In this document: piece after piece, positions 32,735 through 55,079 of the stretch | Position numbering within the stretch: position 1 is the stretch's first letter | Layout: every line of letters begins with the position of its first letter | Virus record (IMG/VR): IMGVR_UViG_3300044568_001950 | Coordinates: 1 to 60,357 of that record | Strand: one strand, 5' to 3' | Length of the DNA: 60,357 bases | Origin: a virus | Position numbers and translations under genes: made by a program | The notes under the pieces: generated by a model | Database searches by the model: none | What the model was told of the DNA's origin: nothing | What the model saw: only the letters and a program-made list of their open reading frames with translations

Positions 32735-34267
32735 ATGCCGGAAGTAGATATCGCACGTTTTAAACAAATTTTTGCAGGTCTTGATATTGCGTATGGAACA
32801 TACAAGATTGAAAAGGAACGGCAAGATGGAAAGCAAAACGGGAAGGCCTCAATCGTCAGGCAACCTCCTACGGATGACCTATGGGTCAAGCATCTTAAGG
32901 GAACCGAGCCTAGCCTCGGGATCATACCGATTCGTGCCGACAATAGCTGCACCTGGGGTTGTATCGATATTGATATGTACCCCATCGATCACGTATCTAT
33001 CATCAAGAAAATTAGAAAGCTCGAACTCCCGCTAGTACCCTTCCGTTCAAAATCCGGTGGCATGCATGTGTTCATGTTTGCAAGAGAACCAGTCACCGCA
33101 ACCTACATGCAAAAGCACCTGAAGCTTTTTGCAGCGTACCTCGGCTATTCGGGTTCAGAGATTTTTCCTAAGCAAACGGAGATTTTGGTTGACCGTGGTG
33201 ACACGGGAAACTTCTTAAACCTCCCATACTTTGGAGGAGACAATGGCACACGCTATGCGTACAAAGATGACGGCTCTGCGGCCACACTCGAGGAGTTTTA
33301 TTCACTTTACGAAACCTATGCCGTTACTGAAGAAACCGTCATCAAAGAACCGAGTAACGTTGCGACTACTCCGGACCTCGCTGACGGTCCTCCGTGCCTA
33401 CAAGTTCTTTGTTCCCAAGGATTTCCGGAAGGCACACGTAATAACGGACTTTTCAACATCGGAGTTTTTCTCCGCAAAGCTAAGCCGGATACGTGGGAGA
33501 ACGAACTTATGGTTTATAACCAAAAGTACATGTCGCCGCCCCTTCCCCTTAATGAGATCACGCTTGTCTCTAAACAACTGAAAAAGAAAGAATATGGTTA
33601 TAAGTGCAAAGATTCGCCGATTAACGGACACTGTAACGCATCGTTATGTAAGACTCGGAAATTTGGTATCGGTCAGTCTAACGATATGCCAAGTATCTCG
33701 GCCCTCTCTAAGTATGCTTCTGATCCCCCGCTTTGGTTTGTTGATGTGGATGGGCATCGCCTGGAACTTACGACAGAGGAACTCCAACAACAGGCTAAGT
33801 TTCAAGTTGTATGTATGAGCAAAGTCAACGTCATGCCGCCGACGTTGAAAAGACAGGAATGGGAGGGGCTGCTCAATGGGCTTCTTAAACAGATGGTTGA
33901 GACGCAGGCAATTACAGAAGCGCCTGAGGATACTTCCAGCGACGGGCGATTCTATGATCTTTTGGAAGAGTTTTGCACTCACCTCCAGACTGCCATGGAT
34001 CGCGAAGAGATTCTTATGGGCCGTCCTTGGACTCACGAAGAAGAGAAGGTAACCTACTTCCGCATCAAAGATTTAGAGAACTTTCTTCAGCGCAACAAGT
34101 TCAACATGACTACGGTCAAGATTGCACAGCGTTTGCGGAACTTGCAGGGTAGCCCACATTCGATCACCGTTAAGAATCGTACGGTACGCACCTGGCGCAT
34201 CCCAGCTTACGAGAAACAGGACTCACCGTTTGATGCCACGATGCCTTCTTCGGGATCTCCATTTTGA
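32735..34267 (+). CDS. Archaeo-eukaryotic-type primase (AEP/PrimPol)
   Basis: 510 residues. The AEP catalytic signature is visible: CIDIDMY with Asp78 and Asp80, KSGGMH with His111, then EIFPKQTEI and GNFLNLPYF (159-166). These features match phage and TOTE-type primases that start DNA synthesis. The C-terminal half may be a helical primase accessory domain and includes a Cys-containing patch (KCKDSPINGHCNASLCK). It ends SGSPF, similar to the ssDNA-binding protein's APF end. TTGA overlap with the helicase gene. Confidence 0.8.
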   Translation: MPEVDIARFKQIFAGLDIAYGTYKIEKERQDGKQNGKASIVRQPPTDDLWVKHLKGTEPSLGIIPIRADNSCTWGCIDIDMYPIDHVSIIKKIRKLELPLVPFRSKSGGMHVFMFAREPVTATYMQKHLKLFAAYLGYSGSEIFPKQTEILVDRGDTGNFLNLPYFGGDNGTRYAYKDDGSAATLEEFYSLYETYAVTEETVIKEPSNVATTPDLADGPPCLQVLCSQGFPEGTRNNGLFNIGVFLRKAKPDTWENELMVYNQKYMSPPLPLNEITLVSKQLKKKEYGYKCKDSPINGHCNASLCKTRKFGIGQSNDMPSISALSKYASDPPLWFVDVDGHRLELTTEELQQQAKFQVVCMSKVNVMPPTLKRQEWEGLLNGLLKQMVETQAITEAPEDTSSDGRFYDLLEEFCTHLQTAMDREEILMGRPWTHEEEKVTYFRIKDLENFLQRNKFNMTTVKIAQRLRNLQGSPHSITVKNRTVRTWRIPAYEKQDSPFDATMPSSGSPF

Positions 34268-35766
34268 ACGTCACCAAAGTATTTGGCCCACCAGGCACAG
34301 GCAAGACTACGTATTTGTTGAACGTTGTCGATAACCTTTTACAAAACGGTACGCCTGCGTCAGGCATTGGTTACTTTGCATTTACTAGAAAGGCGGCGCA
34401 TGAAGCCAAAGAAAGAGCCTACGCTCGCTTTCAGCAACTCGACTTTAAACGAGATCTTGCCAACTTTAGGACCCTGCATAGCCTTGCTTATGCAAGACTG
34501 GGCATCCAAAGTACCCGTATCGCAACGGCGGAGAATTACAAAGATTTTGCCCTTCTGGCCAAAATTAACCTCAGTGTCGATCGCGGAGACGAGTCGTGGG
34601 AAGTACGAGTTGACAATCCAATACTCAACGTCATCAACCTCGCCCGAATCCGTGGAGCAGACCTCCGTGCCGAGTACAACAAAAGCCAGCTAGGCATTGA
34701 GTGGCAACACTTTTATTACGTTTATCGTATGTACAAAAAGTACATGCACGAGAAGGGCCTGTTGGACTTCACCGATCTGCTAGAGATGTTCGCCGAAGCG
34801 GACGATACGTATTACCCGACACTGGACGTCGTTATCATAGACGAGGCTCAGGATTTGAGCCCGTTGCAGTGGAAGATTGCTGACCGGCTAATCAAGAGAG
34901 CCAAGAAGGCCTACGTTGCCGGGGATGATGATCAAGCAATCTTTGGATGGGCAGGTGCTGATGTAAGGCACCTATTAACGTATCCTGGTGATCAGATAGT
35001 GCTTAATCAGTCCTACCGCATTCCAAAGATTGTTCATGACTATAGCAATAAAATCATCCAGCGAGTCAAGTACAGAGTCCCAAAAGAATGGAATCCACGC
35101 GAAGAGCAGGGTGAATTGCACTTTTATTCCCGCTATACAGACGTTGACTTGGTAGACGGAACGTGGTTGATATTGGCCCCCACTAACTATGTTTTAAACG
35201 GGGTCCACGAATATCTAAAAGGCATGGGCGTACTGTTTGAGCGCAATGGCATTCGCTCCATTGGTGAGAGCACCATCGAAGCTGTGTACGCTTGGGAAGC
35301 TCTGAGAAAGGGGAAAGAGATTGGAAGCAGAGAAATCAAATCACTGTACACGTACCTCGGATCAAACAGTATTGGACGGGGCTTTAGAAAGTTTGTCGGA
35401 GATCCTGAGCAGTCCTACAGCTTTGAGAGACTTAGAGCAGAAGGCGGATTGGTTGCTGACGACAGACCGTGGTATGAAAGTCTTACAAAGCTATCCGACG
35501 CTAACCGAGTGTATATCCGAGCGGCTCTCAGACGTGGACAGTCACTTCGAGGAACTCCACGGATACGCCTCTCCACAATACACGGAGCCAAAGGTGGTGA
35601 AGCGGATCACGTTATCGTTATCACAGATTTATCTTCTCAATTTACTCGCGAGCAAGAAGTAAACCCGGACGACATTAATCGTTTGTACTACGTAGGGCTT
35701 ACCCGAACAAGGAAATCCCTACATATCGTTTACCCCCAGGACCAATATAAGGCTTTTCGTTTATGA
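34264..35766 (+). CDS. UvrD/Rep-like SF1 DNA helicase
   Basis: 500 residues from TTG 34264, overlapping the primase stop (TTGA); no better start exists. Motif I GPPGTGKT (8-15), Ia FAFTRKAA, II IIDEAQD, III GDDDQAIFGWAGA, IV/V SLRGTPRIRLSTIHGAKGGEAD, VI YVGLTRTRK. It lacks the large 1B/2B insertions of bacterial UvrD and is shorter (about 500 against about 720). Likely the fork helicase of the phage, coupled to the polymerase by an ATGA overlap. Confidence 0.85.
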   Translation: MNVTKVFGPPGTGKTTYLLNVVDNLLQNGTPASGIGYFAFTRKAAHEAKERAYARFQQLDFKRDLANFRTLHSLAYARLGIQSTRIATAENYKDFALLAKINLSVDRGDESWEVRVDNPILNVINLARIRGADLRAEYNKSQLGIEWQHFYYVYRMYKKYMHEKGLLDFTDLLEMFAEADDTYYPTLDVVIIDEAQDLSPLQWKIADRLIKRAKKAYVAGDDDQAIFGWAGADVRHLLTYPGDQIVLNQSYRIPKIVHDYSNKIIQRVKYRVPKEWNPREEQGELHFYSRYTDVDLVDGTWLILAPTNYVLNGVHEYLKGMGVLFERNGIRSIGESTIEAVYAWEALRKGKEIGSREIKSLYTYLGSNSIGRGFRKFVGDPEQSYSFERLRAEGGLVADDRPWYESLTKLSDANRVYIRAALRRGQSLRGTPRIRLSTIHGAKGGEADHVIVITDLSSQFTREQEVNPDDINRLYYVGLTRTRKSLHIVYPQDQYKAFRL

Positions 35767-37628
35767 CGATATCTCTTTTTCCACAACTGAAAACAGAGTG
35801 GATGGCGCCGGAAGTGTTTCCGGATCTGTCCTCCGCAGAGGCAATTGCAATTGACTTAGAAACATGCGACCCAGGAATGAAAACGAGCGGCCCTGGATGG
35901 CCGACAAAGAATGGCTACATAGTTGGATTTGCCTTAGCCGTAGATGGCTGGAAGGGCTACTTCCCGACCCGCCACGGTGGAGGGGGCAACCTGGACGAGA
36001 AGAAAGTCCGCAAGTTTGTCCAAACTGTTTTGGATCTACCCTGCGACAAGATTTTCTTCAACGCGGCCTACGACGTGGGCTGGCTGAAGGCCGAGGGTTT
36101 CACGATCAATGGGCGCATTATCGATGCGATGATTGCAGCAGCACTTATCGACGAAAATCGATTTAGTTATAGCCTGAACGCTTTGGGCTTTGATTATCTG
36201 CAAGAGACCAAGTCAGAGCAGGGCTTGCGCGATGCGGCCAAAGAGTTTGGTGTGGATCCCAAGGGCGAACTTTACAAGCTCCCTGCCCTGTACGTTGGTG
36301 AGTACGCAGAGCAAGACGCCGCACTGACGCTCAAGCTTTGGCAGTTCTTCAAGATTGAATTGGTTAAGCAGGAATTACTTGCGATCTTTGACCTCGAAAC
36401 AGCGCTGTCCCCGCACTTAATCGACATGACCATGCGTGGCGTGCGCTTGGATGTAAACCGGGCCGAGCAGACCAAAAAGAAGTTTTTGCAAATTGAGAAG
36501 GAAGCACTGGCTCAAATAAAGAGCCTGTCAGGGATTTCCCTAGATATTTGGGCGGCTGCCAGCATTGCAAAGGCTTTTGACAAACTAGGGATCGAGTACC
36601 CCAAGACTGAAAAGGGCGCTCCTTCGTTTACCAAAAGCTTTTTGGCCCACCACCCACATCCCATTGCCAAGTCCATTGTGGACGCCCGTGAGTACAACAA
36701 GGCCAACGGCACGTTCATTGAAGCTTTGCTGAGTTACGCCGAGCACGATGGCCGGATACATGGGCACATCAATCAGTTGCGAAGCGACGAAGGGGGCACG
36801 GTTTCCGGACGACTGTCCATGGCCAACCCCAATCTTCAACAGATTCCAGCCCGCCACCCGGAGATCGGCCCTGCGATCAGGAGCCTCTTTCTGCCGGAGC
36901 AAGACGAAATATGGGCCTCCCTCGATTTCTCCCAACAAGAACCACGGCTCGCGGTCCATTATGCCAAACTGCTGGAATTAAAGGGGGCAGACAAAGCCGC
37001 CGAAGCCTATATCACAAATCCCGATACCGACTTCCACCAAACGGTGGCAGACATGGCAGGCATTGGCCGCAAGCAGGCTAAGACAATTGGCCTTGGGCTC
37101 CTCTACGGCATGGGTAAGGGCAAGATGGCTACCGAACTGGACCTGTCCACAGAGGAAGCCAGCGAACTCATTGGCAAGTTCCACGAGCTTGTACCATTCA
37201 TGAAGGGCCTGGTCACTGCGGTGCAACAACGGGTGGACCATCCAGCTTCAAACGGATCCGTCCGTACCCTGCTTGGGCGTCGATGCCGCTTTAATCTGTG
37301 GGAGCCGACCGAGTTTGGCCTACACAAGGCGTTGCCCCGAGAACAAGCAGTCTTGGAATACGGACCACGGCTCAAGCGAGCCTATACCTATAAGGGCCTA
37401 AACCGCCTGATTCAAGGCTCTGCCGCCGATCAGACGAAGAAGTCCATGCTGGCCTGCATAGAAGCCGGGAAACTGCCCCTGCTCCAGGTCCATGACGAGC
37501 TTTGCTTGTCTGTAACCTCCGCCGAGGAAGCAAATAAATTCGCTCAAGCCATGATGGATTGTGTTAAATTAGAGGTGCCCTCTAAGGTCGATGTCGAATG
37601 TGGACCTTCCTGGGGGGAAGCAGCATGA
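35763..37628 (+). CDS. Family A DNA polymerase with 3'-5' exonuclease
   Basis: 621 residues. Exonuclease motifs: IDLET (Asp31, Glu33), NAAYD (Asp104) and YAEQD (Asp185), all intact. Polymerase motif A LDFSQQEPR (387-395), motif B RKQAKTIGLGLLYG (436-449) and motif C VHDE (576-579). The residue equivalent to E. coli Phe762 is Leu444. No 5'-3' exonuclease domain. A stretch of about 20 residues (520-542) is inserted before motif C relative to my memory of Pol I. This is the phage replicase, coupled with the helicase. Confidence 0.92.
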   Translation: MTISLFPQLKTEWMAPEVFPDLSSAEAIAIDLETCDPGMKTSGPGWPTKNGYIVGFALAVDGWKGYFPTRHGGGGNLDEKKVRKFVQTVLDLPCDKIFFNAAYDVGWLKAEGFTINGRIIDAMIAAALIDENRFSYSLNALGFDYLQETKSEQGLRDAAKEFGVDPKGELYKLPALYVGEYAEQDAALTLKLWQFFKIELVKQELLAIFDLETALSPHLIDMTMRGVRLDVNRAEQTKKKFLQIEKEALAQIKSLSGISLDIWAAASIAKAFDKLGIEYPKTEKGAPSFTKSFLAHHPHPIAKSIVDAREYNKANGTFIEALLSYAEHDGRIHGHINQLRSDEGGTVSGRLSMANPNLQQIPARHPEIGPAIRSLFLPEQDEIWASLDFSQQEPRLAVHYAKLLELKGADKAAEAYITNPDTDFHQTVADMAGIGRKQAKTIGLGLLYGMGKGKMATELDLSTEEASELIGKFHELVPFMKGLVTAVQQRVDHPASNGSVRTLLGRRCRFNLWEPTEFGLHKALPREQAVLEYGPRLKRAYTYKGLNRLIQGSAADQTKKSMLACIEAGKLPLLQVHDELCLSVTSAEEANKFAQAMMDCVKLEVPSKVDVECGPSWGEAA

Positions 37629-41313: not shown

Positions 41314-41331
41314 CCCACGTTGGGGGTTTTT
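41313..41331 (+). terminator. Terminator in the leader of the 41350 gene
   Basis: CCCCA (41313-41317), loop CGT, TGGGG, then GTTTTT. It ends only about 5 bases before the AGGAG ribosome site of the gene at 41350, so that gene is expressed only if this signal is bypassed or opened. Confidence 0.65.
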
Positions 41332-41349
41332 CATATAGGAGAAAGTAGA

Positions 41350-41967
41350 ATGGCTAAGTCCAATTTGAAAGTCGTTAGTGATGTAACCAATGGCGGCAAG
41401 AGCGCCATTGAACAGGGTTTCCCTTATGCTGTAGCTGTACGGGCTCAAGGCGCGGCGGATCTGTTGTTCCACCGTTGGAACTGCGAGTCAGTCGATGCGA
41501 AGTCCAAGGCCGCCAAGAACTCAGCGGCCAAGAAGACAGATGACATCGAGTCCTACGTTTGGAGAAACGAAAAAGATGAACTCTGTATCCCAGGGGAGTA
41601 TTTTAGGCAGTCCATTATCCATGCTGCGAAATTTAAGCAAGACCCCCGTTCTCCGCGTAAATCCGCGATGGATCTCTTCAAAGCCGGGGTCGTTTCACTT
41701 ACTCAGTTGGCGTCACTTGGTAGCGATGAGTGGGACTACCTTGACACTCGTCGGGTCACAGTACAGCGAGCCGGAGTTAATCGAACAAGACCTGCCATGC
41801 GCATCGGATGGGAAGTGGATATACAGTTTCAAATACTCACCCCTGAGTATATCGACCCCCACCTTTTTCAAGACGTACTGAACACGGCAGGCCGCCTCGT
41901 AGGCGTTGGAGACTTCCGCCCAACGTACGGACGTTTTAACATCACAAACTTTGAGGTGCTCTCATGA
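41350..41967 (+). CDS. Unknown protein with GVGDFRPTYGRF end
   Basis: 205 residues from ATG 41350 (TATAGGAGAAAG upstream). Contains LCIPGEYFRQSIIHAAKFKQ, then SPRKSAMDLFKAGVV, and ends RLVGVGDFRPTYGRFNITNF. I know this as a phage protein of unknown function; the Gly-rich GxGDFRPxxGRF end resembles RAMP/Cas7-type RNA-binding proteins, a loose similarity only. It is the gene controlled by the GGYNN leader. ATGA overlap with the next gene. Confidence 0.75.
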   Translation: MAKSNLKVVSDVTNGGKSAIEQGFPYAVAVRAQGAADLLFHRWNCESVDAKSKAAKNSAAKKTDDIESYVWRNEKDELCIPGEYFRQSIIHAAKFKQDPRSPRKSAMDLFKAGVVSLTQLASLGSDEWDYLDTRRVTVQRAGVNRTRPAMRIGWEVDIQFQILTPEYIDPHLFQDVLNTAGRLVGVGDFRPTYGRFNITNFEVLS

Positions 41968-43222: not shown

Positions 43223-43288
43223 GACACTCCCCATTGAATTGGTGTGGGGGACTTGGATAACCCCAATCGTCAAAAAAGGGCGCCCCCA

Positions 43289-43323
43289 CAGGGTTATCGT
43301 ACCCTGAGTGCATGAAACGTCAA
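43289..43323 (-). promoter_or_regulatory. Candidate leftward promoter with palindrome over the -10
   Basis: On the minus strand TTGACG (43323-43318), 16 bases and TACGAT (43301-43296). The -10 lies in the palindrome CAGGGT-N6-ACCCTG (43289-43306), a possible operator. It would serve the HNH/HslV-like operon. Confidence 0.5.
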
Positions 43324-43324
43324 T

Positions 43325-43356
43325 GAGTTACCCGTCATACCCATGAGAGGTAACTC
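43325..43356. promoter_or_regulatory. Inverted repeat GAGTTACC/GGTAACTC
   Basis: Perfect 8-bp arms (43325-43332 and 43349-43356) separated by 16 bases, between the leftward promoter and the AT-rich region. Spacing suits a two-site operator or an RNA hairpin. Confidence 0.45.
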
Positions 43357-43443
43357 GGTGGGTGGTTAGGGGATCAAGTGTCGCGGACCATGGACCATGG
43401 ACCACGGGCCAAGATTACGAAGCCACCATACTGTAGGATTTCT

Positions 43444-43672
43444 AGAAATTTTTTTACTACACGTTTTTTTTCAGTCACTTTTAGACGTAATGAACGTAAT
43501 TTTAGCTATAAGTTATTGATTTATATAAGGAATTAGCATTACGTTAAGCATTACGTTAAAGTATTACTTTAAGTCTAGACGTAATGTTATATAGGATTCT
43601 GTAGCTAAAAAGAGACTCTACGTGCCTTACGTCCGGAAAATGTTGGTAAAAATGTGTAGTGAAAAAATTTCT
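43444..43672. other. Iteron region inside a 19-bp inverted repeat (origin candidate)
   Basis: AGAAATTTTTTTACTACAC (43444-43462) and its near-exact inverse (43654-43672, 18 of 19) enclose 191 AT-rich bases. Inside are ACGTAAT at 43485, 43494 and 43579, and a perfect tandem copy of GCATTACGTTAA (43536-43547, 43548-43559) followed by a degenerate third. Repeated short sites in both orientations, AT-rich DNA and flanking inverted repeats resemble iteron origins or multi-site operators. The Cro-like protein at 43781 might bind the sites. The 558 bases 43223-43780 carry no gene. Confidence 0.6.
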
Positions 43673-43730
43673 GGAAAAAATAACGTATAGGGCGTGTTGC
43701 TCTGTAAGGGGGCTAAAACCCAGAAATACG

Positions 43731-43759
43731 TTGACAAAATACACCAGTGGAGATAATAT
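43731..43759 (+). promoter_or_regulatory. Near-consensus sigma70 promoter
   Basis: TTGACA (43731-43736), exactly 17 bases, TAATAT (43754-43759); about 7 bases on starts the leader ending in AAGGAGAAAAACC before ATG 43781. The strongest host-type promoter in the genome by eye, suggesting immediate-early expression. Confidence 0.85.
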
Positions 43760-43780
43760 AAACAAAGAAGGAGAAAAACC

Positions 43781-44047: not shown

Positions 44048-44249
44048 TCTGTTGGCTAAAGCTGTGGAGAAGGTAGAAAGATCGAGAGATGAGTTGCTGG
44101 AAAATAGGTTTGCTCAGAGGGGTTGCTCCAAGACCAACATGGCAGAGCGGCTGGAATTAATGGAGCGGCGCGGTAAAGAGATAAGGAGAAAGATAGATGA
44201 GCAACAAAGACAAGCAGAAGAGTCCTACAGGTCCGCTAACAATCGGTGA
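44034..44249 (+). CDS. Small charged helical protein
   Basis: 71 residues from ATG 44034 (GGGAG upstream). Almost wholly helical and charged (SRDELLENRFAQRG, MERRGKEIRRKIDEQQRQAE), coiled-coil-like. It overlaps the small terminase gene by 53 bases. Confidence 0.6.
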   Translation: MLVFSLLAKAVEKVERSRDELLENRFAQRGCSKTNMAERLELMERRGKEIRRKIDEQQRQAEESYRSANNR

Positions 44250-44904
44250 TGTGCCGAAGAAGCGAGCCGCTAGAGCACAGGCAAGGATCGTTACTTATGG
44301 GGCACCCCTGACGGGTAAGCGTAAGCCCCTGAAACCTCGGGAGGCGAAGTTTGTTGAAATCTATGCTGGTGCTGATGGCACTATAACTCTGACCCAAGCA
44401 GCCCTTGACGCTGGGTATCCGAAGTCCATTGCATCTCGTATTGGCTCGGAGTTGACCACGCCGGAAAAGTATCCCCATGTCGTAGCGGCAATCCAGCGTA
44501 GACAAGCGGAATTAAATGCAAAGCATGGTACGACCTTTGAGCGGCACATGAAGGATTTGCAATTCATCCGGGATAAGGCAATTGAATCCGGGGCATGGGC
44601 GGCGGCGGTCCAAGCCGAATATCGGAGGGGCCAAGCATTGGGTACGATTTATATTGACCGCAAAGAGATCCGGCATGGCTCGATAGATTCGATGAGCAAA
44701 GAGGAAGTGCAGAAGAAGTTGGAAGCTTTGCGTAAGCTATATCAAGGCAGTCCGGAAGTGGTGGATGTGCAGATCACAGAATCGATTGAGATGGAAAAGA
44801 AAGCAGACCATACAGAGGAGTTTTTAAATGACGAAGAAGCCGGAAGCGAGCTTTTATCAGAAGATGAAGAAGGGGATGACGGGGTCGAAGATAACCCGCG
44901 TTGA
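44197..44904 (+). CDS. terS: Terminase small subunit
   Basis: 235 residues. KRKPLKPREAKFVEIYAGAD, then LTQAALDAGYPKSIASRIGS, is the N-terminal HTH of the Terminase_2/small-subunit family, which recognises the packaging site. The middle is helical (oligomerisation) and the C-terminus strongly acidic (EEAGSELLSEDEEGDDGVED). AAGGAGAAAGATAG precedes the ATG. It lies about 5.5 kb from the large subunit, separated by small early-type genes. The nuclease gene overlaps its end by 77 bases. Confidence 0.8.
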   Translation: MSNKDKQKSPTGPLTIGDVPKKRAARAQARIVTYGAPLTGKRKPLKPREAKFVEIYAGADGTITLTQAALDAGYPKSIASRIGSELTTPEKYPHVVAAIQRRQAELNAKHGTTFERHMKDLQFIRDKAIESGAWAAAVQAEYRRGQALGTIYIDRKEIRHGSIDSMSKEEVQKKLEALRKLYQGSPEVVDVQITESIEMEKKADHTEEFLNDEEAGSELLSEDEEGDDGVEDNPR

Positions 44905-51893: not shown

Positions 51894-54800
51894 ATGGCAC
51901 AACAAAGTAGCCCGGACGTCGATCAGATTCTATCTACTATTCGTCAGGTAGAGTCTAGCAACAACTATGGTGCGCAGGCAAAGGGTTCGTCGGCCTCGGG
52001 CGCGTATCAGTTTATTGATAGTACGTGGCAGGCTTCGACAAAGAAAGCTGGTTTAGGGACCGAGTACTCAAGGGCCAAGGACGCTCCTCCTGAGGTGCAA
52101 GACGCGGTGGCCGCGTTTGCTGTTCGGGACATCTTGAATCGCACGGGCAATGACGTGTCGAAGGTGCCGCTGGTGTGGTATACGGGCAACCCTGAGGGTC
52201 GGATGACCGAGGACGCTCTTCGCGCAAACCAGGGCCTGACTGCGGATAAGTATCAGCAGAAGTGGCTGTCTGTGTTGGGTGGCGGGGCTCCTGCACAAAC
52301 GGCTCAGGCTCCACGGACCACGGCCCAAGGACCAAAGCAGGCAGGCGCTCGTGTGGCGGCTGCTTTTAACCCCAGAGATTTGCCGAGTAGTTATACGTCG
52401 GCGTTGGCGTTGAATTATTTGGCTGACACGGACCCTGAGGGTGTGACCATGAGCAAGGTCAACGAGATGTTGACCGAGATGATGGAAGATGGTGGCGGTG
52501 CGGCAAAGCCTGCTGGGGGCAAGATCCTGCAGCAGTTCGCACAGGCAAAAAGTGCTGATCCGTTCCAGTTTGTTTTGCAGCAAGAAGAGCCTAAGCGTCG
52601 TGCGGTGCCGAGAATGCCAAAGATGTTTGCTGAGGGTGGTGAAGTTGGTGAGCAATACGAGTCCTTAGAGGACGTTATGGCCGCTGCTCCCACGCAGGAT
52701 GAAGAGCAAAGACAGTGGGAGCAGGAGATTCCTGTTCGAGAATTGACACGTCAGTTAAATGAGACAGTGGACAGGTATCGTGCGGGCAGGGCTTCGGAAG
52801 AGGACGTAAAACAGTTTTTTCCGAACTATAGTGATTACGACATTGCTAATATGTTTGGCATGACAGATGCTGGCCAAAGCGGTCCAAGGCCCGAGATCAC
52901 TGCTCAGCCCTTCTTGACTCCTGAAGTATACGATCGAGCCATGAACCGGGGGCGGATGGAACAGTACAATATTGAGCGTGAGATCCGCGAAAAGAGCCCA
53001 AACCAGTATCCGTACAAAAGGGATTTCACTCTTGGGCTGCAGCAGTTTGCTGACGGTGGCGAAGTAGACTACAACCAGATGGCAGAGCAGATGACTGTTG
53101 GAACACTGCCCACGGACCAACGACCAGCCGGTGAAGTGTTTCGGGGGATTGGGCAAGATATCGTGCGTGGAGCGCAGTATTTGCCGTATGACTTAGCGGG
53201 TGCTCCGGTGGACATTGCCACGATGGCGATGAGGCCGTTTGGGTACAACGTCGAGAAACCTGTGGGTGGCAGTGAGTATCTGATTGAGAAAGCTCGGCAG
53301 GCTGGGATTGCCCAGGCACCCACGGGTTCGACTGCAGAAACTGCAACCCGCATCGGTATGGGATTCGTGAACCCTGCGGCAGGAGCAAGGCAGATAGGTC
53401 GTGGGATTGAAGGACTTACAGATGTAGTTACGGCGCCGATTGATCGCGCAAAAATCCGAGCAGCAGCCTCTCGTGCCCCAGAAGATGTTACCTATGACCC
53501 TCTAAGAGAACGGCTAGAGTCGCAAGGAATTTTGTCCTTGGCTACACGCCCGGGCGGAAGTGTTATGTTTGGTGACGAAACCTCACGTAATCTCCTTAAG
53601 CTGCATTTAGATCAGCAACGCTTGGATGAATACGCCCAAGGTGAAATGCCAAAAGCAGGGGCTGAGTTTAGCAATTCGTTTTTAAACTATTTGCCAAAAA
53701 TAGATAAATATATGCAGTTGCAGTATTCAACACCAAATGATCCTTTGCTCATTGCAACTGTAGAAGGCAGATTTAAACCAAAACCTTTTTTGCGCCCCAA
53801 TGATATTTTTAGTTATGACCGAAAAGAAATTTCAAGAATAACTGAAATTCCCTTACAAGACGAAACAAAATTAACTCCTGCCCATGTGAACAAACTTTTA
53901 GAGTTGTCTAAAGCTGGTAATGAAAAAGCTCAAAAAATGGTATTTAGTGGTGCTAATAGGGCTATGTCTTCTTCCGGACGCATAACCCCGCTGCAAATAG
54001 TAGATAGACTAAAAAACACAGAATTTTTTGATGAAGTAAATGCCAATCTTAAAAGTGCTGTTGAAAGTACTTTTTGGAAAGAACTAGGAAAAGAAGAAGA
54101 TATAGTCCCTTTAATGAAAAAATATATTAATCAAAAAGCAATCTCCAATAATGAAGAAGAACAAAAAGCGTTTAACACACTAGAATTTAGAGTTTCGACT
54201 ATCCTAGAAAAAAAAGCGGACGCAGAAAAAGAACTTCAAGCTAAAAACTCTTTGTTTGGTAAATATCCAACCTCAATAAATCTAGTGCGTGATCCAAGGG
54301 AACTTAATGAGGCAATAGAAAATATTCCGGCTATAGCGGAAGAAATTAAAAGAGGAAAACCCGTTTACCAACCTACAAATACTTGGAATTCTCCGTTCAG
54401 AACAGAAGACATATTTGAGTACATGTCAGAAAATGATCCGGCCAAGTGGTCAAAGATGTCTGTCCCAGAATTAATTATTGCATCTTCGGCCAAAGATCCT
54501 GCCTCCGTTACAAGCCCCACAAAAATTGCTAGGATGGCAGATGATGGAGATCCACTAACTGCGGATCAATTAAGAACAGGTACTCAAAGATATATGCCCG
54601 TTAATTCTCCCACTTTGGGGGAAGGCGCCGAATGGCGAGAAATAACTACCAAAGAGGGGCTACGGATTGAGGGTGGGGTGTTACAACATTGCTTAAAAAG
54701 AGAAACAAGCGGTTATTGCAATCGCCTTTTAAACAAAGAGTCTAAATACTTTACTCTACGAGATGCCGATGGGCAGCCTTATGTAAGTATCGAACTTGCA

Positions 54801-55079
54801 AAACCTATCGGCAGAGAAAAAGAAGATGTTCCGTACAGCGTAATTAAACAAGTCAAGGGCTTTAGAAATACTAATACTATTCCTTTATACGGGGAAGAAG
54901 TCTCAGACTTTTTGATGGATTGGCAGAAAAAGTCTGGTGTTAAATTGAGTCCAACGGAAGATAACGATTTTCTTCCTCAAAAATTTAAGCAAAAGACTTC
55001 TTTTGGAATAGAAGCTCCTCCAGAAAATTTTCGCAAGGGCGGCATGGTAGATAAACCTTTATATGATCGGGCAGTGTGA
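51894..55079 (+). CDS. Virion transglycosylase with PcfJ-like C-terminal region
   Basis: 1061 residues. N-terminal SLT domain: IRQVESSNNYGAQAKG (catalytic Glu about 19), SASGAYQFIDSTWQ and VPLVWYTGN. Central part: Pro/Gln-rich linkers with MFAEGGEVGE and FADGGEVDYN. C-terminal about 300 residues: WREITTKEGLRIEGGVLQHC (His932-Cys933), then KYFTLRDADGQPYVSIELAK and YSVIKQVKGFRNTN, resembling the PcfJ pattern of mobile-element proteins. From about 53600 to 55078 the DNA is clearly more A/T- and Lys-rich than its neighbours, suggesting acquisition. Ends FRKGGMVDKPLYDRAV. Probably a packaged and ejected cell-wall-degrading protein. Confidence 0.7.
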   Translation: MAQQSSPDVDQILSTIRQVESSNNYGAQAKGSSASGAYQFIDSTWQASTKKAGLGTEYSRAKDAPPEVQDAVAAFAVRDILNRTGNDVSKVPLVWYTGNPEGRMTEDALRANQGLTADKYQQKWLSVLGGGAPAQTAQAPRTTAQGPKQAGARVAAAFNPRDLPSSYTSALALNYLADTDPEGVTMSKVNEMLTEMMEDGGGAAKPAGGKILQQFAQAKSADPFQFVLQQEEPKRRAVPRMPKMFAEGGEVGEQYESLEDVMAAAPTQDEEQRQWEQEIPVRELTRQLNETVDRYRAGRASEEDVKQFFPNYSDYDIANMFGMTDAGQSGPRPEITAQPFLTPEVYDRAMNRGRMEQYNIEREIREKSPNQYPYKRDFTLGLQQFADGGEVDYNQMAEQMTVGTLPTDQRPAGEVFRGIGQDIVRGAQYLPYDLAGAPVDIATMAMRPFGYNVEKPVGGSEYLIEKARQAGIAQAPTGSTAETATRIGMGFVNPAAGARQIGRGIEGLTDVVTAPIDRAKIRAAASRAPEDVTYDPLRERLESQGILSLATRPGGSVMFGDETSRNLLKLHLDQQRLDEYAQGEMPKAGAEFSNSFLNYLPKIDKYMQLQYSTPNDPLLIATVEGRFKPKPFLRPNDIFSYDRKEISRITEIPLQDETKLTPAHVNKLLELSKAGNEKAQKMVFSGANRAMSSSGRITPLQIVDRLKNTEFFDEVNANLKSAVESTFWKELGKEEDIVPLMKKYINQKAISNNEEEQKAFNTLEFRVSTILEKKADAEKELQAKNSLFGKYPTSINLVRDPRELNEAIENIPAIAEEIKRGKPVYQPTNTWNSPFRTEDIFEYMSENDPAKWSKMSVPELIIASSAKDPASVTSPTKIARMADDGDPLTADQLRTGTQRYMPVNSPTLGEGAEWREITTKEGLRIEGGVLQHCLKRETSGYCNRLLNKESKYFTLRDADGQPYVSIELAKPIGREKEDVPYSVIKQVKGFRNTNTIPLYGEEVSDFLMDWQKKSGVKLSPTEDNDFLPQKFKQKTSFGIEAPPENFRKGGMVDKPLYDRAV

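Follow-up and report, generated by a model that had tools for sequence, protein, structure and literature searches.

Little is known so far about how replication starts in phages that carry a primase of the AEP type. In the IncQ plasmid RSF1010, the oriV includes the primase sites ssiA and ssiB, and the primase initiates at stem-loops, which are two small hairpins recognised by RepB'. In the AEP plasmid pRN1, a stem-loop of non-conserved sequence (stem of 21 nt, loop of 58 nt, no iterons) lies between conserved flanks behind the replication gene, and one mutant stem failed whereas restored symmetry rescued replication, according to the available part of PMC4234260. In the same part, origins of the stem-loop kind are proposed for several further phages with AEP primases, and the authors state that direct proof of the pRN1 stem-loop as an origin is lacking. 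The stem-loop is also described as essential in the accessible text of PMC3869888, but rolling-circle replication is proposed there. Phage SPP1 has two origins, oriL and oriR, composed of direct repeats and AT-rich DNA, and replicates with a DnaB-type helicase and with DnaG from its host; the available portion of PMC6316719 mentions no long inverted repeat for it. SPP1 also has pac repeats near terS, and the DNA-binding domain of SF6 shows little sequence preference (PMC4737164, in the part available), while the TerS site of HK97 has been mapped in cos (PMC11331095, likewise in part).

The element studied here, which comprises about 230 bases of non-coding DNA and is common to related lake and ocean phages, is probably a DNA replication origin used together with the AEP-type primase of the phage. 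As in pRN1, an AEP primase is encoded and a large stem-loop is found whose structure is conserved and whose sequence is not, the symmetry of the stem being needed in pRN1 (available parts of PMC4234260 and PMC3869888); L031, L034, and L193 are exceptions to this conservation of pairing. In contrast to pRN1, the loop of the present element spans 130–220 bp and holds ordered sites, and the primase gene is about 9 kb away. Its direct-repeat array with AT-rich DNA is a feature of iteron origins, and iterons are shared with the oriV of RSF1010 (PMC4234260, in part). A single long stem of no fixed sequence takes the place of the two small hairpins of that plasmid. The siphoviruses described below resemble SPP1 with its oriL and oriR in having two copies per genome, one of them with an initiator gene (PMC6316719, in part). 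The direct repeats adjoining terS are like the SPP1 pac, although arrays of the present type also stand beside the primase gene in other phages, and sequence-free arms are not described for pac in the available part of PMC4737164. The element is without mention in the accessible parts of PMC9599517, PMC12753301, and PMC5862659, and a description of it was not found in the open-licence literature.

The window, by which we mean the whole analysed stretch of 60,357 nucleotides, is a closed circle, as its 127-bp terminal repeat shows, and represents a phage genome of 60,230 bp; its relative, phage DSL-LC04, was assembled from Dishui Lake metagenome data. The earlier note on this DNA had described iterons enclosed by a 19-bp inverted repeat and had proposed either a replication origin or a multi-site operator. 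The repeat and site features that it named were confirmed as real and far beyond chance. The left arm at 43444–43462 (AGAAATTTTTTTACTACAC) matches the reverse complement of 43654–43672 (AGAAATTTTTTCACTACAC) in 18 of 19 positions across a gap of 191 bases, and the repeat can be extended to 41 bp at 80% (Table 1). Among the long-range inverted repeats of the window with gaps of 60–400, it ranks best with a score of 21, the next reaching 13, and in 200 block shuffles that preserved the composition of the gap at 43274–43780, the observed 22.5 was never attained (mean 9.0, SD 1.1). All three ACGTAAT sites (F sites) and both inverted ATTACGT cores (R sites) are present, and five of the 14 copies of these motifs in the genome fall inside 229 bp, a count reached in none of 5000 shuffles. 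The tandem of R sites is perfect and occurs nowhere else in the window; a degenerate third copy of its unit follows at 43560–43571. In AT content this segment, at 71.2%, shares the highest value for 229 bp with one other, which lies inside the ORF at 51894–55079.

Leftward HNH and HslV-like genes flank the element on the left, and the right side carries, in order, the rightward promoter, a small gene for an HTH protein, an ORF of unknown function, and terS, in agreement with the placement given earlier. The HTH gene had been called Cro-like; such a gene exists, but its Pfam match above the cut-off is YdaS_toxin, with P22_Cro below the cut-off. The AEP primase, UvrD-like helicase, and polymerase A genes are clustered at 32.7–37.6 kb. 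A separate inverted repeat (GAGTTACCCGTCAT/ATGAGAGGTAACTC) with tandem GGACCAT units occupies 43310–43411, to the left of the element; in many relatives, similar GGACCA-type repeats are found on this side of the element, and several copies of a GTTACTC hairpin occur in L006.

Table 1. Features of the element and associated genes in the window, and second copies of the array in other phages.
Feature	Position	Strand	Remark
Left arm	43428..43468	+	best ungapped core 43439-43468
F sites ACGTAAT	43485-43491, 43494-43500	+	conserved in relatives
R sites, tandem GCATTACGTTAA	43536..43559	+	ATTACGT at 43538, 43550
Last F site ACGTAAT	43579..43585	+	
Conserved block GAGACTCT-N5-CCTTACGTCCGG	43612..43636	+	near right arm, at the place of the relatives' G+C-rich block
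Right arm	43648..43688	+	best ungapped core 43648-43677
Sigma70-like promoter	43731..43759	+	TTGACA-17-TAATAT, 10/12; faces terS operon; outside element
HTH protein, YdaS-like, 88 aa	43781..44047	+	adjoins element; not a constant neighbour
Terminase small subunit (terS)	44197..44904	+	
AEP-type primase	32735..34267	+	proposed partner of element
UvrD-like helicase	34264..35766	+	
Family A DNA polymerase	35763..37628	+	
Second copy, Kokobel2	14.18 kb		
Second copy, VLCpiS6a	near 1.9 kb of record		
Second copy, SH-Ab 15497	across record start		upstream of annotated terS
Second copy, JeffCo			upstream of first gene

Relatives were collected by scans of viral contigs, the loci being mostly baited with TerS, and 163 terS-bearing loci yielded 142 upstream regions of at least 400 bp, of which 83 were non-redundant. 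Inverted repeats that scored at least 11, at spacings of 110–240 bp, were found in 65 of the 83; since this threshold is low for AT-rich DNA, the firmer count is that of the 52 regions in which the observed score lay above all 15 block shuffles. In a genome-wide scan of 12 genomes at spacings of 100–260 bp, the element's repeat was the best in eight, with G008 tied, and was undetected in G004, G006, and G010. Many relatives carry CTATAG at the outer ends on both sides, often 204–230 bp apart, and CATACTG at the outer end of the window's left arm is the counterpart of this CTATAG-like end.

Between the arms, the order in relatives is F sites, a spacer, R sites, a final F site, and a G+C-richer block near the right arm. 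The left F sites number two in the window and three, at steps of about 9 bp, in many relatives (FFF-RR-F). The site sequence is lineage-specific, the copies within one genome being alike (GACGTAAT, GGTGTTAC, GTGGGACT, CTAGGAAA, and TGGCACAC), and in the DSL-LC04 group the sites are degenerate. Conservation of the iterons, for which comparison with relatives had been suggested, was thus borne out, as the array recurs with its F/R order kept. A blind scan for FFF-RR-F in 20 genomes placed an element first, alone or tied, in eight (G001, G005, G006, G009, G010, SH-Ab, VLCpiS6a, and Kokobel2), the window being among the 12 failures, which counts against the origin reading, and a general scan for repeated 7-mers did not single it out, with 0.5% to 18% of the scanned segments ranking above it. 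Two other kinds of repeat were considered and rejected: transposon-like (MITE) ends by inference, each family genome having a single copy in the one location and the arms differing in sequence, and an invertible segment by inspection, as the sites run in a single direction with respect to the genome in those elements that were read.

Judged from sequence comparison, arm complementarity is conserved and arm sequence is not. The pair L004/L177 can be aligned well with the pair L028/L179 as far as the left CTATAG, again across the interior, and on the right side from TATAGGAAAC onwards; both arms are unalignable between the pairs, yet complementary inside each genome. The arms of L004 and L028 are identical at 7 of 30 positions on the left and 11 of 30 on the right and are complementary at 25 of 30 in each genome, with 76 of 92 aligned interior positions identical. 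For L177 and L179, the corresponding values are 5/30 and 10/30 for identity, 25/30 and 19/30 for complementarity, and 75/92 for the interior. DSL-LC04, which is L004, and G007, whose arms are as in L028, have primases 98%, TerS 93%, TerL 96%, and portal proteins 98% identical. Since these near-identical proteins accompany unrelated arms, the letters of the arms are unlikely to be read by any of them. Arms are weak or undetected in L031, L034, L133, and L233. Evidence against the origin reading comes from the weak or missing arms of L031, L034, G006, and G010 and from L193, in which arms of two kinds are combined.

Upstream of terS in L193, the left arm is like that of L188 and the right arm like that of L214, so that the two are mismatched; this locus is either a natural recombinant or a chimeric contig. 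In the HTVC023P-type elements (L365–L444), the inner left arm CCTTA...TAAGG is self-complementary, which makes two alternative pairings possible.

Complementary arms might also belong to a structured non-coding RNA transcribed from the plus strand, and this reading was initially preferred because the plus strand is lower in energy for 61 of 65 elements. The fold in the window has an energy of −78.8 kcal/mol, whereas shuffles average −47.0, which is consistent with such an RNA, and the arm mismatches, with duplicates removed, lean to pairing on the plus strand (33 G·T and 14 A·C on that strand). The RNA reading was abandoned on shuffle controls: against shuffles of equal composition, the minus strand is equally strong (−7.28 and −7.36 in the window), and z+ lies below z− in just 8 of 28 elements chosen from the 65. 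Further, Rfam gave no family at gathering score in 14 relatives and none credible in the window, and a consistent promoter ahead of the left arm was not found. We read the element as DNA and regard a transcribed RNA as very unlikely.

By tblastn, an AEP primase was found in 14 of 15 family genomes. The exception, G004, is also without this TerS and without a strong repeat at such a place, so that co-occurrence with the primase alone cannot separate the readings of the element. Pfam AEP-TOTE scored above its cut-off in all five primases scanned, and DxD and H are invariant in the alignment of five rows. A phage collection contained 25 records with a related primase, 4 in the family and 21 outside, and 12 of the 21 were examined; these out-of-family primases are distantly related to that of the window. 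An array of F and R sites stands directly upstream of the primase gene in nine of the 12, in the order FFF-RR-F in Kokobel2, VLCpiS6a, PSA28, PMBT28, and K21lambda1 and in shorter or rearranged orders in SH-Ab 15497, Bhz20, JeffCo, and Barton. The nine records are non-independent, as they include four Acinetobacter phages and four phages of a Klebsiella/Salmonella/Pseudomonas group, and the arrays were read by eye, with a scan also for Kokobel2, VLCpiS6a, and SH-Ab. Three records with a related primase and no recognised array, namely MW202510, where none was seen on inspection, and Pan1 and R5C, where the annotation leaves only 62–68 bp ahead of the primase gene, count against an origin.

The four clearest genomes (Kokobel2, VLCpiS6a, SH-Ab 15497, and JeffCo) hold a second copy with the same site. 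The two copies in Kokobel2 have unlike flanking inverted repeats, a perfect one of 18 bp before the primase and an imperfect one of 18 bp (score 13) at 14.1 kb, and in the latter copy the RR sites lie outside the arms. TerS of the window's family was undetectable in all five array-bearing genomes tested (best E 0.028).

In the family, the element is found 25–950 bp from terS, and its distance of about 9 kb from the primase gene counts against an origin. It stops about 20–40 bp ahead of terS in HTVC023P and its relatives, whereas in the Pelagibacter phage HTVC027P and in 023Pt_psg01 terS is on the opposite strand, with the place and direction of the element unchanged. The HTVC027P-related contigs have repeats 259 to about 1170 bp past the 3' end of terS, above threshold in some of 80 loci. 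Since terS is inverted there and the element is not, a terS leader or operator is excluded as a general explanation, and that candidate was dropped. The same constancy of place and orientation tells against the multi-site operator of the earlier note. An operator for the neighbouring Cro-like protein was also rejected, because the HTH gene is not constant beside the element, its relative not being found there in several relatives, such as L018, L028, L032, and DSL-LC04. More broadly, a regulatory region, in which a repressor or activator on the sites would set the transcription of the adjoining operon, could draw on the sigma70-like promoter that follows the element and on the siphovirus copies ahead of the primase or of the first gene. 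We consider it unlikely: the element stays put where terS is inverted, and transcriptional control would account for the sites and not for the arms, long complementary arms without fixed letters being not known for operators.

A packaging-initiation site (pac or cos), with TerS on the repeated sites and a cut by TerL near the G+C-rich block, was the leading reading until the primase-linked arrays appeared. It accounts for the place of the element within about 1 kb of terS, even with terS inverted, and the presence of repeats next to terS resembles the SPP1 pac (PMC4737164, available part). The HTVC023P-type contigs L377, L391, and L411 start no more than a few bases from the G+C-rich block, their left ends being possibly genome ends and possibly assembly breaks in a variable region, and 6 of 14 genomes close as circles, which is consistent with headful packaging. 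Packaging does not account, however, for the similar arrays found ahead of the primase gene in phages where a relative of this TerS is undetectable, and it leaves the arms without explanation. Among 22 loci, contigs coming from the opposite side of the element never ended at the block, and the linkage to terS was seen in loci found mostly by TerS bait. Changes in the sites are also unmatched by the recognition helix of TerS, an argument that is weak because little sequence preference is reported in the available part of PMC4737164. Taking both sides together, a packaging site seems improbable to us.

An origin is favoured because the array is conserved, the arms covary, and AEP primases are linked to it. 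The sites, the arms, and the association with the primase are all accounted for by an origin, and the nearness to terS then represents a place in a conserved gene order. To this extent the candidate origin of the earlier note stands, whereas the GC skew, to which that note had also looked, gave a mixed result. In ten genomes, the detrended skew minimum lies within 0.5 kb of the element in three (G001, G005, and G006), where the largest skew step is located at the element as well, and elsewhere in seven, namely 5.6–7.5 kb away in four (the window, G002, G003, and DSL-LC04) and 22–25 kb away in three pelagiphage-type genomes. A crude count of ORF orientation around the element did not cleanly separate skew from gene direction, and with the minimum at the element in three of ten genomes, the skew is of little help. 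DnaA boxes were absent from the window and showed no pattern across relatives, and no known initiator was found, both of which tell against an origin. In L237 and L239, unlike most relatives, four DnaA-box-like sites each lie close to the element, and two of the four are immediately to the left of its left end.

At the proposed origin, a putative DNA-binding initiator would occupy the FFF-RR-F sites, and its binding may open the AT-rich DNA between the arms. In each strand of the resulting single-stranded DNA, the two arms could then join in a long stem, where the primase, together with the helicase and polymerase A of the phage, would begin synthesis. Under such a mechanism, the arms would drift freely, but jointly, because pairing is needed and not the letters. 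There is perhaps an even chance that elements of this kind form a widespread class of origins in AEP-primase phages, in which a long stem of freely changing sequence but maintained pairing encloses ordered FFF-RR-F iterons. Such a class would be used by a family of freshwater phages as well as by pelagiphages of the HTVC023P type, and two copies would be present in siphoviruses of Acinetobacter, Klebsiella, and Providencia. It would combine two designs so far known apart, the iteron array and the sequence-free stem.

The 215-aa protein encoded at 41320–41967 (PHROG 4652, without a Pfam match, function unknown) is 93% identical in DSL-LC04, against about 50–70% for other DSL-LC04 proteins, and its relatives are encoded by 211 viral stretches. 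L036 (G004) is a mosaic genome: TerL, portal, MCP, HslV, and the 41320 protein have relatives in it, and relatives of the primase, polymerase, helicase, and TerS, as well as a strong repeat element, were not found. Contig L039, reached via the 41320 protein, has at 2528–2802 a strong inverted repeat with 28-bp arms and a 219-bp gap, which encloses AT-rich DNA in a genomic setting that differs from that of the window's element.
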